DNA of 64,000 nt. Origin: Kamptonema formosum PCC 6407. Lineage in GTDB: Bacteria > Cyanobacteriota > Cyanobacteriia > Cyanobacteriales > Microcoleaceae. Made by a program: the position numbers and the translations under genes. The first letter of the stretch is position 1. The number at the start of each line of letters is the position of its first letter. The notes beneath the pieces are model-generated. The model was not told the DNA's origin. It saw nothing but the letters and a program-made list of their open reading frames with translations, and ran no database searches. This document shows, piece after piece, positions 10,592 to 29,141 of the stretch. The stretch covers positions 1,043,810 to 1,107,809 of the forward strand of contig NZ_KB235904.1 in the NCBI RefSeq assembly GCF_000332155.1, in the 5' to 3' direction.

Positions 10592-10608
10592 ATAATGATT
10601 ATCATTAT
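10592..10608. promoter_or_regulatory. Fur-family (probable Zur) operator 1
   Basis: ATAATGAT-T-ATCATTAT is a perfect 17-bp palindrome, made of the GATAAT hexamers that build Fur/Zur boxes. It ends 4 bp before the start codon at 10613, so a bound repressor would block initiation directly. The downstream metal-chaperone genes make Zur more likely than Fur. Confidence 0.75.
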
Positions 10609-10612
10609 TTCT

Positions 10613-11395
10613 ATGAACCAACTTGTAATCACTGCCGTAGCAGGCCCAGCCGGCATCGGCAAAACCACCTGGATTCGACAGCAAATAGCGACAGAACCCT
10701 TACCAGCGGTATATTTCAGCCCCGGAACAGGTAACGTCCCCATAGACCAAGCCTGCATCGCCGCTGAATTTCCCCAAGTGAAAACCCTAAGTGACACCCA
10801 AAAATCCTTACTCACCAAACACTTAATAAATGGTGGCGTAGCCTACATTGAATTGGGGTGTTACCTGCAACTTGATGCCGTCAACAGCTTGCTAGAGGAA
10901 TTTCCCAGTCGCCGCGTCTGCATAGTACCGCCGACGATAAAAGACAGCGAGTGGCAAAATTGGGCCGATGAAACTGTCGAGGGAGTATCAATCAATCAGC
11001 AATGCGAAGAACTATCAATTTGGCGATTACCCCTACAAGGAAATGTCATTGACCCCGTAAGTCTCGATGTTTTTTGGTATCAAGAAATGACCCAAGGAGC
11101 CTATGGCAAAATTCACAGAGCCAAAGGCATTTTTGACATCGCTGACGGGAGAGCATTCTACTTAGATTTCGTTGCCGAACTTGCAGAAACCAAATATGAA
11201 GAATTGAATCTCCCCCGCTGGCTAGAAGGCAAACCCCAACGCTTCAGCGGGATCGAAATTATCGGTGAAAATCTGGATGAAACTGCATTGCTCCAAACTT
11301 TAGAATACTCCTGTTTGCCAGAAGCCGCAATCTTATATTACCAGCAGCAAGTTAAAGATTCAATGTCATTATCAGCAGAGGAAGAAACAACATGA
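10613..11395 (+). CDS. CobW-like P-loop protein without the CxCC motif, 260 aa
   Basis: The protein starts MNQLVITAVAGPAGIGKTTW; the Walker A loop GPAGIGKT sits at residues ~10-17. I chose the ATG at 10613 because an upstream in-frame extension would run through the operator. The C-terminal part (YGKIHRAKGIFDIADGRAFY, then FSGIEIIGENLDETALLQTLEYSC) resembles the CobW C-terminal domain. Unlike the CobW protein at 13243 it has no CxCC metal motif and no His-rich loop. A divergent member of the COG0523 metallochaperone family under zinc control is inferred. Its stop overlaps the start of the phosphoesterase gene (ATGA), so the two are translationally coupled. Confidence 0.7.
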   Translation: MNQLVITAVAGPAGIGKTTWIRQQIATEPLPAVYFSPGTGNVPIDQACIAAEFPQVKTLSDTQKSLLTKHLINGGVAYIELGCYLQLDAVNSLLEEFPSRRVCIVPPTIKDSEWQNWADETVEGVSINQQCEELSIWRLPLQGNVIDPVSLDVFWYQEMTQGAYGKIHRAKGIFDIADGRAFYLDFVAELAETKYEELNLPRWLEGKPQRFSGIEIIGENLDETALLQTLEYSCLPEAAILYYQQQVKDSMSLSAEEETT

Positions 11396-12207
11396 AAATT
11401 GCAGTTATGTCTTGCATTCATGGTAACTATGAAGCCTTGAATGCAGTTTTGACAGATATTGACCAACAAAAAGCTGATAGCATCTTTTGTCTCGGAGATT
11501 TAGTTGGTTATGGCCCCCATCCTCACGCAGTTGTTGAGCAAATTCGCTCCTTAGATATTCCCACTTGTGCGGGATGTTGGGATGAAGATATTGTCGAAGG
11601 CTTAAACTCCTGTGAATGTAGTTATCCCTCAGTGTTAGCAGAAAAACGGGGCAAATTAGCTCACGAATGGACTAACCAGAATATCTACCCTGAAACGCGG
11701 GAATATTTAGCACAATTGCCTCACAGTTTAAAGGAAAATAACCTTTGTTTTGTTCATGGTAGCCCCCATACAGCCCATGAGTATTTATTGCCCGAATTAG
11801 ATGCTTTTATCGCCTTAGAAAGAGTCTTATCTACTGGTGCAGATGTACTATTTTGCGGTCATACTCATGTGCCATATATCCGCACTTTAGATGGCGGTCA
11901 ATTGCAGGTAAAAGTAACTGGTAGCGACGGGAAAGTAGATGATTATTTAAATTTTTCTGCGCCTGTTTTAAAGATTGTTAATGTCGGTTCGGTTGGAGAA
12001 CCGCGTCATGGAAGGCCAAATGCTACTTACGTTATTTACGATGAAGATACACAAAATGTGACATTAAGAGAGGTTGAATATGACTATCAAAAAACCTGTG
12101 CTGCGATTATCGAAAAAGGTTTGCCGCCTATCTTTGCATGGCGTTTAGCCAGAGGTTTAGAGTTTGCAGAAAGAGCAGACGATCCTACTCATGTTTGTGC
12201 AAGATAG
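11392..12207 (+). CDS. Metallophosphoesterase-family protein with altered metal ligands, 271 aa
   Basis: The fold is that of YfcE-like calcineurin phosphoesterases: a first motif SCIHGN (residues 7-12), then CLGDLVGYGPHP, AGCWDED, CFVHGSPH and CGHTHVPY in the usual order. Two ligands differ from the consensus DxH...GNH(D/E): the first Asp is Cys8, and the Asn of the GN motif is replaced in GCWDE. The GD, HG and GHTH motifs remain. Activity with a different metal, or a binding role, is possible. It is coupled to the upstream GTPase and lies in the zinc-responsive operon. The substrate is unknown. Confidence 0.75.
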   Translation: MKIAVMSCIHGNYEALNAVLTDIDQQKADSIFCLGDLVGYGPHPHAVVEQIRSLDIPTCAGCWDEDIVEGLNSCECSYPSVLAEKRGKLAHEWTNQNIYPETREYLAQLPHSLKENNLCFVHGSPHTAHEYLLPELDAFIALERVLSTGADVLFCGHTHVPYIRTLDGGQLQVKVTGSDGKVDDYLNFSAPVLKIVNVGSVGEPRHGRPNATYVIYDEDTQNVTLREVEYDYQKTCAAIIEKGLPPIFAWRLARGLEFAERADDPTHVCAR

Positions 12208-12405
12208 GTAATTGGTAATTGGTAATAGCTAATAGCTAATGGCTAATTGCTAATTGCTAATGGCTAATGGTTAATGGCTAATGACTAATGGCTAATTATC
12301 CCTCTCCCCTCTCCCCTCTCCTCTCTCTTCCTCTTTCCCTAGCTACTGACGCACCCTACGAATACTACTACGAATACTGCAAATTTTACGAAAAAGCAAA
12401 TCAAA
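12208..12405. repeat. Heptamer repeat spacer
   Basis: About 75 bp of ggctaat/tgctaat heptamers are followed by a CCCTCTCCCCTCTCC pyrimidine run and by GACGCACCCTACGA. No gene is visible. A loss of the operator-driven transcript here cannot be excluded, as no separate operator precedes the gene at 12406. Confidence 0.7.
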
Positions 12406-26974: not shown

Positions 26975-28132
26975 ATGGATGTACTTACTAAAGCTTATGC
27001 GATTGGTACTCACCGTTTAATCTCACCTGAACAAACCTTAGCAAATATCCACCCTTACTTACCAGCAGCAGGGATTACTCGTTGTGCAGATATCACTGGT
27101 TTAGATCGAATTGGCATTCCTGTTTATTGTTCTATAAAACCCGGTGGGCGCTTGGTACAAATCCACAACGGTAAGGGATTATCTCAGATGGCGGCTAAAG
27201 TCTCAGCGCTAATGGAAGCAATAGAAGTTTTCCATGCTGAAAACCCATACTGCAATTTTTATAGCAGCAGTTTTAATGATATTAATGTTAGCGATCTATC
27301 AATAATTTCACCTAATATTTTACCACTTTACTTATCCCATAATTTCTTTAGCAAAGACTTAATAATCGACTGGATTAAAGCAGAAAATTTGCAGAAAAAT
27401 GAAAGTGTATTGCTACCTGCAAGCGCTGTCTATCTGCGATCGCCGTCGCTGTATGGCTTTTCCTCAAATGGTCTTGCTAGTGGCAATCATATTGTAGAAG
27501 CAACCCTACATGGGCTTTATGAGTTAATTGAAAGAGACGCAATAGCTGGGGTGAGTATTAATGGCAAAATTGACATTAAAAGCTGTCAAATTATCGATCT
27601 AAATACGGTGGATGATGAGTTGATATGTTCGCTAATATATCGGATTAAATCTGCTAATTTTAAGCTGGTATTAATCTGGCTAAAAAGTTGTATTTCAGTT
27701 AATACTTTTTGGGCAATTATCCTTGACAAAAATCCCTTAACTCCTGCAATTATGGTCAATTTCGGTTACGGAACACATCTAAGTGTTTCTGTAGCTGCGG
27801 CACGGGCAATTACTGAGGCTGCTCAATCTCGCTTGACATTTATTTATGGTGTTAGTGAAGAGTTGGCAGAGCCACTTCCTCGCGATCGTAGCCAGACTTA
27901 TTATAAAATTTATGCTTATTTTGACCGTTTACAAGCAACAGCATCTTGGCAGAATTTCAGTAGTCTAGCTGGTAATAATTTAAGCGAAGATTATAATTAT
28001 ATTTTGCGATGTCTGTGGGAAAGTGGATATAAAAATATATTCCGAGTCAATCTAACTCGGCCGACATTTAATATTCCAGTTGTTAAAGTTTTAGTGCCGG
28101 GGTTACGATATAACCCTTCCATAACCGGGTAA
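26975..28132 (+). CDS. YcaO-family cyclodehydratase/thioamide synthetase, 385 aa
   Basis: The ATP-binding signature residues of YcaO are present: [13 protein letters not shown] (77 on), [15 protein letters not shown] (175-189) and ITEAAQSR (279-286), plus NGKGLS near 65. YcaO enzymes phosphorylate a backbone amide to make azolines or, with TfuA, thioamides. The C-terminus ends [19 protein letters not shown]: it reaches the usual VPGL block but stops soon after, so it is either short or clipped by a few residues. Coupled to tfuA. With three Cys in the precursor core, azoline formation is possible too. Operator 4 may control the operon. Confidence 0.9.
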
Positions 28133-28161
28133 TTTTTCTGGTAGTAAATGCGTCTTTTTGT

Positions 28162-28208
28162 GGAACAGATGCGATAATAATGATAATCATTATTATCGCA
28201 TCTGTTCC
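28162..28208. promoter_or_regulatory. 47-bp perfect palindrome, probable Zur operator 5
   Basis: Every base from 28162 to 28208 pairs across the centre at 28185, with arms starting GGAACAGATGCGATAATAAT. The middle, AATAATGAT-A-ATCATTATT, matches the operator phase of 10592 and 16654. The outer arms (GGAACAGATGCG) add a strong hairpin. It ends one base before the hemB start at 28210. As RNA it would bury any ribosome-binding site, and it may also end ycaO transcription. Confidence 0.75.
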
Positions 28209-28209
28209 T

Positions 28210-29141
28210 ATGTCATCCACAAATAACGTCGAGTCCGCCATTTCCACCGACAACAATCAAAACCCCTCCCTGACAAGCATCCGTCCCCGCCGCCTCCGCC
28301 GTACACCAGCTTTGCGGCGCATGGTACGAGAAAATCACTTAACCGTTGACGACCTCATCTATCCCCTATTTGTAATGACAGGGGAGGGGCAAAATTTCCA
28401 GTAATACCTGAAAGCCAAAAAGACGACAACGGCAGCGAAAGTTACAACCCCGAAGGATTAGTACAGAAAACGGTCAAAGCTATCAAAGAAATTGTACCAG
28501 AAATAGTAGTAATTACTGACGTAGCCCTCGATCCTTTTACCACTCACGGACACGACGGCTTAATTGACGAAAACGGTAAAGTCCTTAACGATCCAACAGT
28601 AGAAATTCTGGTAAAAATGGCAGTTTCTCAAGCCGTTGCCGGCGCAGATATGGTAGCACCTTCTGACATGATGGATGGGCGCGTAGGCGCAATTCGTAAA
28701 GCCTTAGATGCCTCTGGCTACTTCGATGTCAGTATTCTGGCTTACTCCGCTAAATATGCCTCTGCCTATTACGGCCCCTTTCGAGATGCCCTCGATTCTG
28801 CCCCTAAATTTGGTGATAAAAAGACTTATCAAATGGATGCGGCAAACGCTAGAGAAGCCTTGAAAGAAGTTGCTTTAGATATCGCCGAAGGAGCAGATAT
28901 TGTGATGGTTAAACCAGCCTTAGCTTACTTAGACATTATCTGCCAAATTCGAGAAGTAACTCAGTTACCTGTTGCTGCTTATAATGTCAGCGGTGAATAT
29001 GCGATGATTAAGGCCGCTGCACAGCAAGGATGGATTGATGAAAAGCAGGTAATTTTAGAGACTTTAACCAGTATTAAACGGGCGGGTGCTGATTTAATTT
29101 TGACTTATTTTGCCAAGGAAGTTGCTTTGATGCTAAGGTAA
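28210..29141 (+). pseudogene. hemB: delta-Aminolevulinate dehydratase, disrupted by deletion and frameshift
   Basis: The 5' part ([19 protein letters not shown], then [13 protein letters not shown]) stops at 28404. A second frame opens at about 28395 with [13 protein letters not shown] and runs to 29141, containing [13 protein letters not shown] and [11 protein letters not shown] (the two substrate Lys). Between GEGQ and FPVIPE, about 30 residues normally present, including PSMPGCYRY and the following helix, are missing, and the two parts are in different frames. The retained metal region [14 protein letters not shown] lacks the Cys triad of zinc-type enzymes. An assembly error is possible. 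The gene follows the palindromic operator, so it was probably a zinc-responsive hemB copy. Confidence 0.8.

Follow-up and report, generated by a model that had tools for sequence, protein, structure and literature searches.

The 64,000-nucleotide stretch of Kamptonema formosum PCC 6407 DNA analysed here (contig NZ_KB235904.1; hereafter the window) carries an island for a ribosomally synthesized and post-translationally modified peptide (RiPP), at whose centre lies a class II lanthipeptide cassette. Its modifying enzyme is a LanM (20083..23274, minus strand; TIGR03897, 916 bits) that keeps the dehydratase motifs and has altered cyclase zinc ligands, and its exporter genes encode LanT, an ABC exporter with a C39 peptidase (17908..20052, minus strand; PF03412, PF00664, PF00005), and an HlyD-type membrane fusion protein of a peptide exporter (14357..15856, minus strand; PF13437). 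The precursor (16006..16233, minus strand; TIGR03898, 74 bits against a cut-off of 23.5) is of the mersacidin type and has a leader running up to GG, after which comes a core of 27 residues, CTCGSTQCSMPWHHYSGVAEESSTLLA. LanM, a GG-leader precursor and a C39 exporter, the components that define a class II lanthipeptide cluster, are thus all present. On the plus strand lie an SLH-OprB porin (23550..25424; PF04966, PF00395; NF033921), a TfuA with a long C-terminal extension (25532..26968; PF07812; NF033432, 234.5 bits against a cut-off of 235.2) and a YcaO of the TfuA-paired kind (26975..28132; PF02624, 225 bits; TIGR03266, 226 bits, below its cut-off of 365), an adjacent pair that misses the NCBIfam equivalog cut-offs. 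Profile matches bore out LanM, precursor, C39, HlyD, OprB, TfuA, YcaO and CobW, families of the original prediction from the letters of this DNA; the precursor start that it had placed at 16302 is corrected, most likely to 16233, by comparison with relatives.

Five near-identical copies of a 7-1-7 operator, TGATAATNATTATCA, are spread over the 18.5 kb of the island (10590-29141), two of them exact and three with one mismatch each. Box 1 (CGATAATGATTATCA, 10590-10604) stands 8 bp upstream of the likely start of a CobW_C-type gene, box 2 (exact, 16307-16321) 74 bp upstream of the precursor start, box 3 (16658-16672) 22 bp upstream of an FAD gene, box 4 (exact, 23380-23394) in the divergent lanM/porin promoter, and box 5 (28181-28195) directly upstream of a hemB paralogue, inside a perfect 23-1-23 palindrome (28162-28208). 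This 47-nt palindrome could also fold as an RNA hairpin just 5' of the hemB start codon. The five palindromes first noticed hold up, and they make up half of the 10 sites at no more than one mismatch in the 6.9-Mb genome, with both exact sites among them; the binomial figure for this concentration (3.5e-11) is descriptive, because the stretch was picked for its boxes. Scanning the window with a 17-mer gave 13 matches (both strands, at most three mismatches) against 0.39 expected from shuffles. Genome-wide, at up to two mismatches, the operator is not enriched (79 sites versus 107 for the reversed pattern), and for this reason only near-perfect sites are informative. The boxes would drive the island genes. 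Elsewhere in the genome a two-mismatch box lies about 120 bp upstream of a gene for a P-type ATPase-like protein that begins with a His-rich stretch (L015, G000:C1:598939); with two mismatches, chance may explain this site.

The genes around these operators point to zinc. A near-perfect operator stands before each unit and zinc genes are its neighbours, as in a Zur regulon, and we consider it very probable from this arrangement that the conserved lanthipeptide export cassette is under zinc control. The island hemB is of the zinc-free type and exists beside a housekeeping hemB (C6) with a zinc-type site, DTCLCEYTSHGHCG; znuABC-type genes adjoin the cassette in three genomes; and CobW-type genes, hisI and thrS adjoin it in Trichormus variabilis. 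Each of these three observations argues for zinc rather than iron, and together they lend indirect support to the zinc control originally proposed. The excerpted text of PMC6103462 lists hemB2 among the Zur targets of Anabaena PCC 7120 and Synechococcus PCC 7002, and that of PMC2770081 names HisI, ThrRS and HemB paralogues as Zur-linked. In Tychonema sp. LEGE 07203 ycaO is directly followed by a hemB that is intact and has a box with one mismatch; next come genes for a protein of the ZnuA family, an ABC ATPase and an ABC-3 permease, with a further box. At two further loci (L106 and L108) the cassette adjoins znuA and znuCB, which diverge from a shared box. On plasmid A of T. variabilis ATCC 29413 the porin and lanM-lanT diverge from an exact box, and a one-mismatch box, lanA and hlyD are followed by two metallophosphatases, a CobW_C protein (two-mismatch box upstream), hisI, a methyltransferase, a CobW GTPase, DUF1636 and thrS; the CobW-type, hisI and thrS neighbours are a typical Zur set. 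The window carries the same CobW_C-phosphatase-phosphatase-CobW run at 10.6-14.3 kb.

Several observations weigh against zinc. The closest PDB match of the Tychonema ZnuA-type protein is a manganese protein, and the ZnuA family also includes manganese proteins; the znuABC promoter of the window genome itself has only a three-mismatch site; and NCBIfam labels the porin an 'iron uptake porin'. TGATAATNATTATCA is also the Bacillus Fur box. That resemblance, the name of the porin and two genome proteins that score highest with NCBIfam Fur models, though below cut-offs, are what would make the operators Fur sites and the island iron-responsive. Set against them are the neighbours (znuABC-type genes, zinc-free hemB, CobW-type, hisI and thrS) and the finding that none of the four TonB receptor loci has a box, and we regard control by iron as very improbable. 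The NCBIfam models do not discriminate Zur from Fur or PerR in this genome; the repressor is probably the protein at L018, a candidate Zur because of its CxxC pairs. The excerpted text of PMC10957091 has its own 15-bp motif matching the Anabaena Zur consensus.

The association of cassette and box recurs across the order. A search for lanA matched 42 of 388 genomes at E<=1e-5, and one region of 4-20 kb per genome was taken for all 42, the window included. In 21 of these loci lanM or lanA has a box with at most one mismatch (an intact lanM in 19, lanA in L103, and both a split lanM and lanA in L104), two more lie beside znuABC, and 19 are without a box. In total, 43 boxes at this threshold fall in 23 loci (L032, L038 and L088-L108) versus 0, 0 and 1 in three shuffles, and the 19 remaining lanA loci (318,775 bases) hold none. 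Five loci (L036, L037, L039, L040 and L041) duplicate the records G607, G647, G605, G620 and G657, and were counted once. The porin adjoins lanM in 18 of the 21 boxed loci, and two of the other three end at contig ends. On the LanM tree the box label takes three changes versus 12.8 in shuffles; since the sequences share kinship, the p-values of these comparisons are descriptive only, which tempers the case. A real conserved RiPP export cassette is thus supported, with porin, LanM, C39 exporter, precursor and HlyD as its conserved core. In the search for the same gene set in other cyanobacteria that had been suggested at the outset, the box with lanM or lanA was found in 21 of 42 loci, and TfuA/YcaO in 7 of the 23 zinc-linked ones. 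One of the 19 box-free loci (L119, G646:C55) has a decayed cassette made up of a porin, lanM fragments, a lanA remnant and a two-mismatch site.

Aligned to LicM2 (PDB 6st5), the window LanM agrees in its DFHAEN and DLE dehydratase motifs, and reads WSHG against WCHG and LCNG against LCHG. The WCHG and LCHG positions are, as in NisC and CylM, the cyclase zinc ligands (Cys, Cys, His), the usual set of which is lacking here. It follows that the cyclase would be either zinc-independent or dead, the latter leaving Cys free, and either state suits a zinc-starved cell. At least one ligand is altered in 15 of 21 box-linked LanMs (a set with L038 but without the split L104), in neither of the two znuABC-adjacent enzymes and in 1 of 13 others with that region. 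Against a link to zinc, six box-linked LanMs retain their cyclase ligands, and in a second sample the ligands were also altered in 6 of the 21 LanMs for which neither lanM nor lanA has a box, all six of them new to this sample. It came from a LanM search that matched 21 of 386 genomes and held 26 LanMs, with at most two scored per genome and eight shared with the first set. The altered box-free enzymes make the ligand change a weaker sign of zinc control. The more distant box-free LanMs of L145, L149, L152, L153, L161 and L162 have altered ligands. A second LanM of the window genome (L159) has intact ligands and no box, and L111 and L112 have only three-mismatch sites, L112 with altered ligands. 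In the excerpted text of PMC7268733, LanKC is described as lacking the cyclase zinc ligands that other cyclases retain.

The cores of the precursors bear on what the product might do. HH or HT is found in all 23 zinc-linked cores versus 3 of 30 control precursors, the comparison excluding two truncated loci and two core-less rows. Relatives that carry TfuA/YcaO share a CxC...C...HH...G core, and clades without the pair have cores of the types CTxCG(N/D)P(L/F)HT, CTTCTG...HT or HT...C. A profile search for related precursors matched 4106 sequences at E<=1e-10 among 7974 scored, of which the best 120 were inspected and 22 retrieved. Given the operators and these cores, we lean slightly, at little better than even odds, towards a Zur-controlled lanthipeptide that would be made and secreted under zinc scarcity and serve as a zincophore. 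Two points count against such a role: any His at all occurs in 7 of 17 controls when the one best precursor per locus is taken (14 of all 30), and thioether sulphur is a weak zinc ligand. The peptide could instead be a lantibiotic induced by zinc starvation that hits zinc competitors, possibly via their zinc receptors, and is no zinc carrier. Its leader and GG-CT core start are those of the mersacidin/lichenicidin family, and the excerpted text of PMC13060382 credits a different class II lanthipeptide of cyanobacteria with antimicrobial and antifungal activity; yet the constant partners of the cassette are the porin and, at several loci, zinc genes, and HH/HT is kept in every zinc-linked core. 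Moreover, among the open reading frames of the cassette, to which no aimed profile search was applied, none looked like an immunity-type ABC gene. The mersacidin lipid-II motif is not kept in the cores either, and on balance we hold an antibiotic role to be unlikely.

The pairing of LanM with TfuA/YcaO, which the original prediction took as the essence of the system, did not survive the comparison. The pair was found in 7 of the 23 zinc-linked loci, with L088 counted via its other half, L039, and was not seen in the other 16 (regions of 8-20 kb, some ended by contig ends); TfuA/YcaO as the system core is accordingly rejected, and the pair is an add-on of one clade. A TfuA search matched 7 of 386 genomes of the phylum, and two of the matches outside the window were full-length, at 45-46%. 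In G008 (L032) the set occurs in a different order with separate boxes at tfuA (exact), lanM (one mismatch) and lanA (two mismatches), and in G019 (L042) the stretch around TfuA/YcaO has neither LanM nor a box. Scanning named genomes for YcaO yielded 22 loci, of which L036-L044 were examined and the remaining 13 came from other phyla. Six of them (L036-L041, from Oscillatoriales USR001, three Microcoleus, Tychonema and a 'Richelia' metagenome-assembled genome) have a porin, TfuA and YcaO alongside LanM and a LanT that in some is broken or cut, together with a lanM box at no more than one mismatch, and L042-L044 have TfuA/YcaO in a different context without boxes. In these last three, from Nostocales, the pair adjoins, as judged by eye, an MBL-like hydrolase and a halogenase-like flavoprotein. 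The C-terminal extension of the window TfuA contains a repeated motif, WIINQGPEYFGI / WIVNQGPNYFGI (26555-26592 and 26852-26889).

Whether the pair acts on the lanthipeptide can be weighed from the same loci. TfuA/YcaO might be co-regulated and work on another substrate, so that zinc starvation would yield two peptides, or one peptide plus a modified protein; the 16 zinc-linked loci in which the pair was not seen and the different contexts of the YcaO kin in L042-L044 speak for this. However, all seven loci in which TfuA/YcaO, box and lanA are in view together have a core of the CxC...HH kind, a simple GG-motif scan found no further precursor near by in the window or in L032, and LanM is likewise paired with TfuA and YcaO at L118, so we find a separate substrate rather unlikely. 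At that locus (G404:C53), which is without a zinc box, LanM (32%), TfuA and YcaO are adjacent and are accompanied by several small precursors with related leaders. A thioamide on the window peptide is conceivable from this gene content, at somewhat less than even odds. The excerpted text of PMC7268733 reports YcaO in some lanthipeptide clusters, and that of PMC8120280 counts 18 cyanobacterial TfuA clusters and nowhere mentions zinc or metal.

TonB receptors are absent from the island, and the four encoded elsewhere in the genome have no box (at most two mismatches, within about 1.5 kb), so that a TonB receptor was rejected as the island partner. This absence tells against uptake of a loaded peptide, as does the size of the product, since a 27-residue peptide may be too large for a cyanobacterial porin. 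The peptide could then remain outside as a zinc buffer or signal without re-uptake, a possibility that gains from the missing dedicated receptor gene in the cassette and from the SLH domain of the porin; the porin is co-regulated, however, and the link to zinc uptake genes recurs, and we think a purely extracellular role improbable. According to the excerpted text of PMC9705863, Zur regulation was found in Anabaena for two TonB receptors but for none of the porins studied, the all5191 porin had more transcript when iron and zinc were limiting, and porin alr2231 may pass zinc; given the results for all5191 and alr2231, a zinc-linked porin is not wholly new.

The hemB paralogue of the zinc-free type (28210..29141, plus strand) is broken by an internal deletion of 103 nt, measured against the Tychonema sp. 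LEGE 07203 copy, which counts against its part in the island; its proposed place among the working genes is therefore given up. A hemB beside ycaO was seen in the window and L039 and was not seen in L036 or L038. In the CobW chaperone set, the COG0523 GTPase (13243..14319, plus strand; PF02492/PF07683), a predicted zinc chaperone, has a GCICC motif and a long His loop. The other member (10613..11395, plus strand; PF07683), degenerate kin of COG0523, matches only the CobW C-terminal domain, and PF07683 is likewise the family of its T. variabilis cluster homologue. Between them lie a metallophosphoesterase (11392..12207, plus strand; PF12850; 81-83% in the zinc clusters L088, L090 and L096) and a metallophosphatase-like protein without a Pfam family (12406..13128, plus strand; 72% in L088, 67% in L090). 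The FAD/NAD(P)-binding, SidA-like protein (16694..17911, plus strand; PF13454, PF13434) is common in cyanobacteria; it has many relatives (1261 proteins at E<=1e-40, the best 120 of which were inspected), it matches no solved structure at E<=0.01, and a role as a dedicated tailoring enzyme is unsupported. We also noted in the window short tandem heptamer-like arrays (CTAATGG, GTTAACT, GTTAGTT) in and near gene ends of the island at 12208-12291, 20069-20110 and 29848-29945, a WD40-repeat protein with repeated units (8109-10253) followed by a tRNA-Thr (10348-10419), and the Yfr1 small RNA at 50217-50283 (Rfam RF01116, 56.5 bits).

Although speculative, a working order for the proposed zincophore can be sketched. 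Zinc-loaded Zur, probably the L018 protein, would occupy the five operators until a drop in zinc frees them. LanM would dehydrate Ser and Thr of the CTCGSTQCSMPWHHYSGVAEESSTLLA core and then link Cys to the dehydrated residues without zinc, or some Cys would stay free; YcaO-TfuA might put sulphur in place of one backbone oxygen, giving a thioamide, and the site could be the conserved Gly following HH. LanT would cleave behind GG and, together with HlyD, export the peptide, whose His pair and remaining sulphur would bind zinc. The metal, complexed or free, might re-enter via the co-regulated porin and then ZnuABC, and the COG0523 protein could pass it onward inside the cell. The broader proposal, a family of Zur-controlled ribosomal zincophores in cyanobacteria, made here by a LanM whose cyclase has shed its zinc so as to function, or to leave Cys free on purpose, when cells lack zinc, with a TfuA/YcaO thioamide in one clade and a return through a dedicated OprB porin, is a tentative one to which we give somewhat less than an even chance.

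Known systems resemble the island in parts. Methanobactin, a RiPP chalkophore, is likewise a ribosomal, modified and exported metal-starvation peptide with backbone sulphur chemistry, but it serves copper and relies on MbnBC and uptake by a TonB receptor, where the island has zinc, LanM and YcaO-TfuA. Coelibactin and pseudopaline are zincophores, predicted or shown to scavenge zinc and reportedly linked to Zur; both are nonribosomal or enzyme-built small molecules, unlike the ribosomal product proposed here. Class II lanthipeptides of the mersacidin/lichenicidin type share the leader, LanM, C39 exporter and GG-Cys-Thr core start, to which the island adds zinc-linked operators, a conserved His, altered cyclase zinc ligands and a porin partner. 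ZepA of Anabaena, in the excerpted text of PMC10957091, is a Zur-regulated, exported, zinc-scavenging polypeptide with COG0523 and threonyl-tRNA synthetase genes near by, but it is an exoprotein and not a small modified peptide; that text nowhere mentions lanthi, ycao, tfua or porin. The thioamidated RiPPs of PMC8120280 share the TfuA-YcaO pair, with no zinc or metal link stated in its excerpted text. Among the literature matches listed, mostly outside subscription papers, no Zur-controlled lanthipeptide or RiPP zincophore is described.

If the proposal is true, this would be, as far as is known from the literature searched, the first lanthipeptide with a role in metal supply and the first RiPP zincophore. 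A LanM that works without its cyclase zinc ligands would extend zinc sparing to the enzymes of natural-product synthesis. Finally, the conserved cassette makes two open questions, the role of such cyanobacterial lanthipeptides and how zinc crosses the outer membrane, directly testable in the culturable T. variabilis ATCC 29413.

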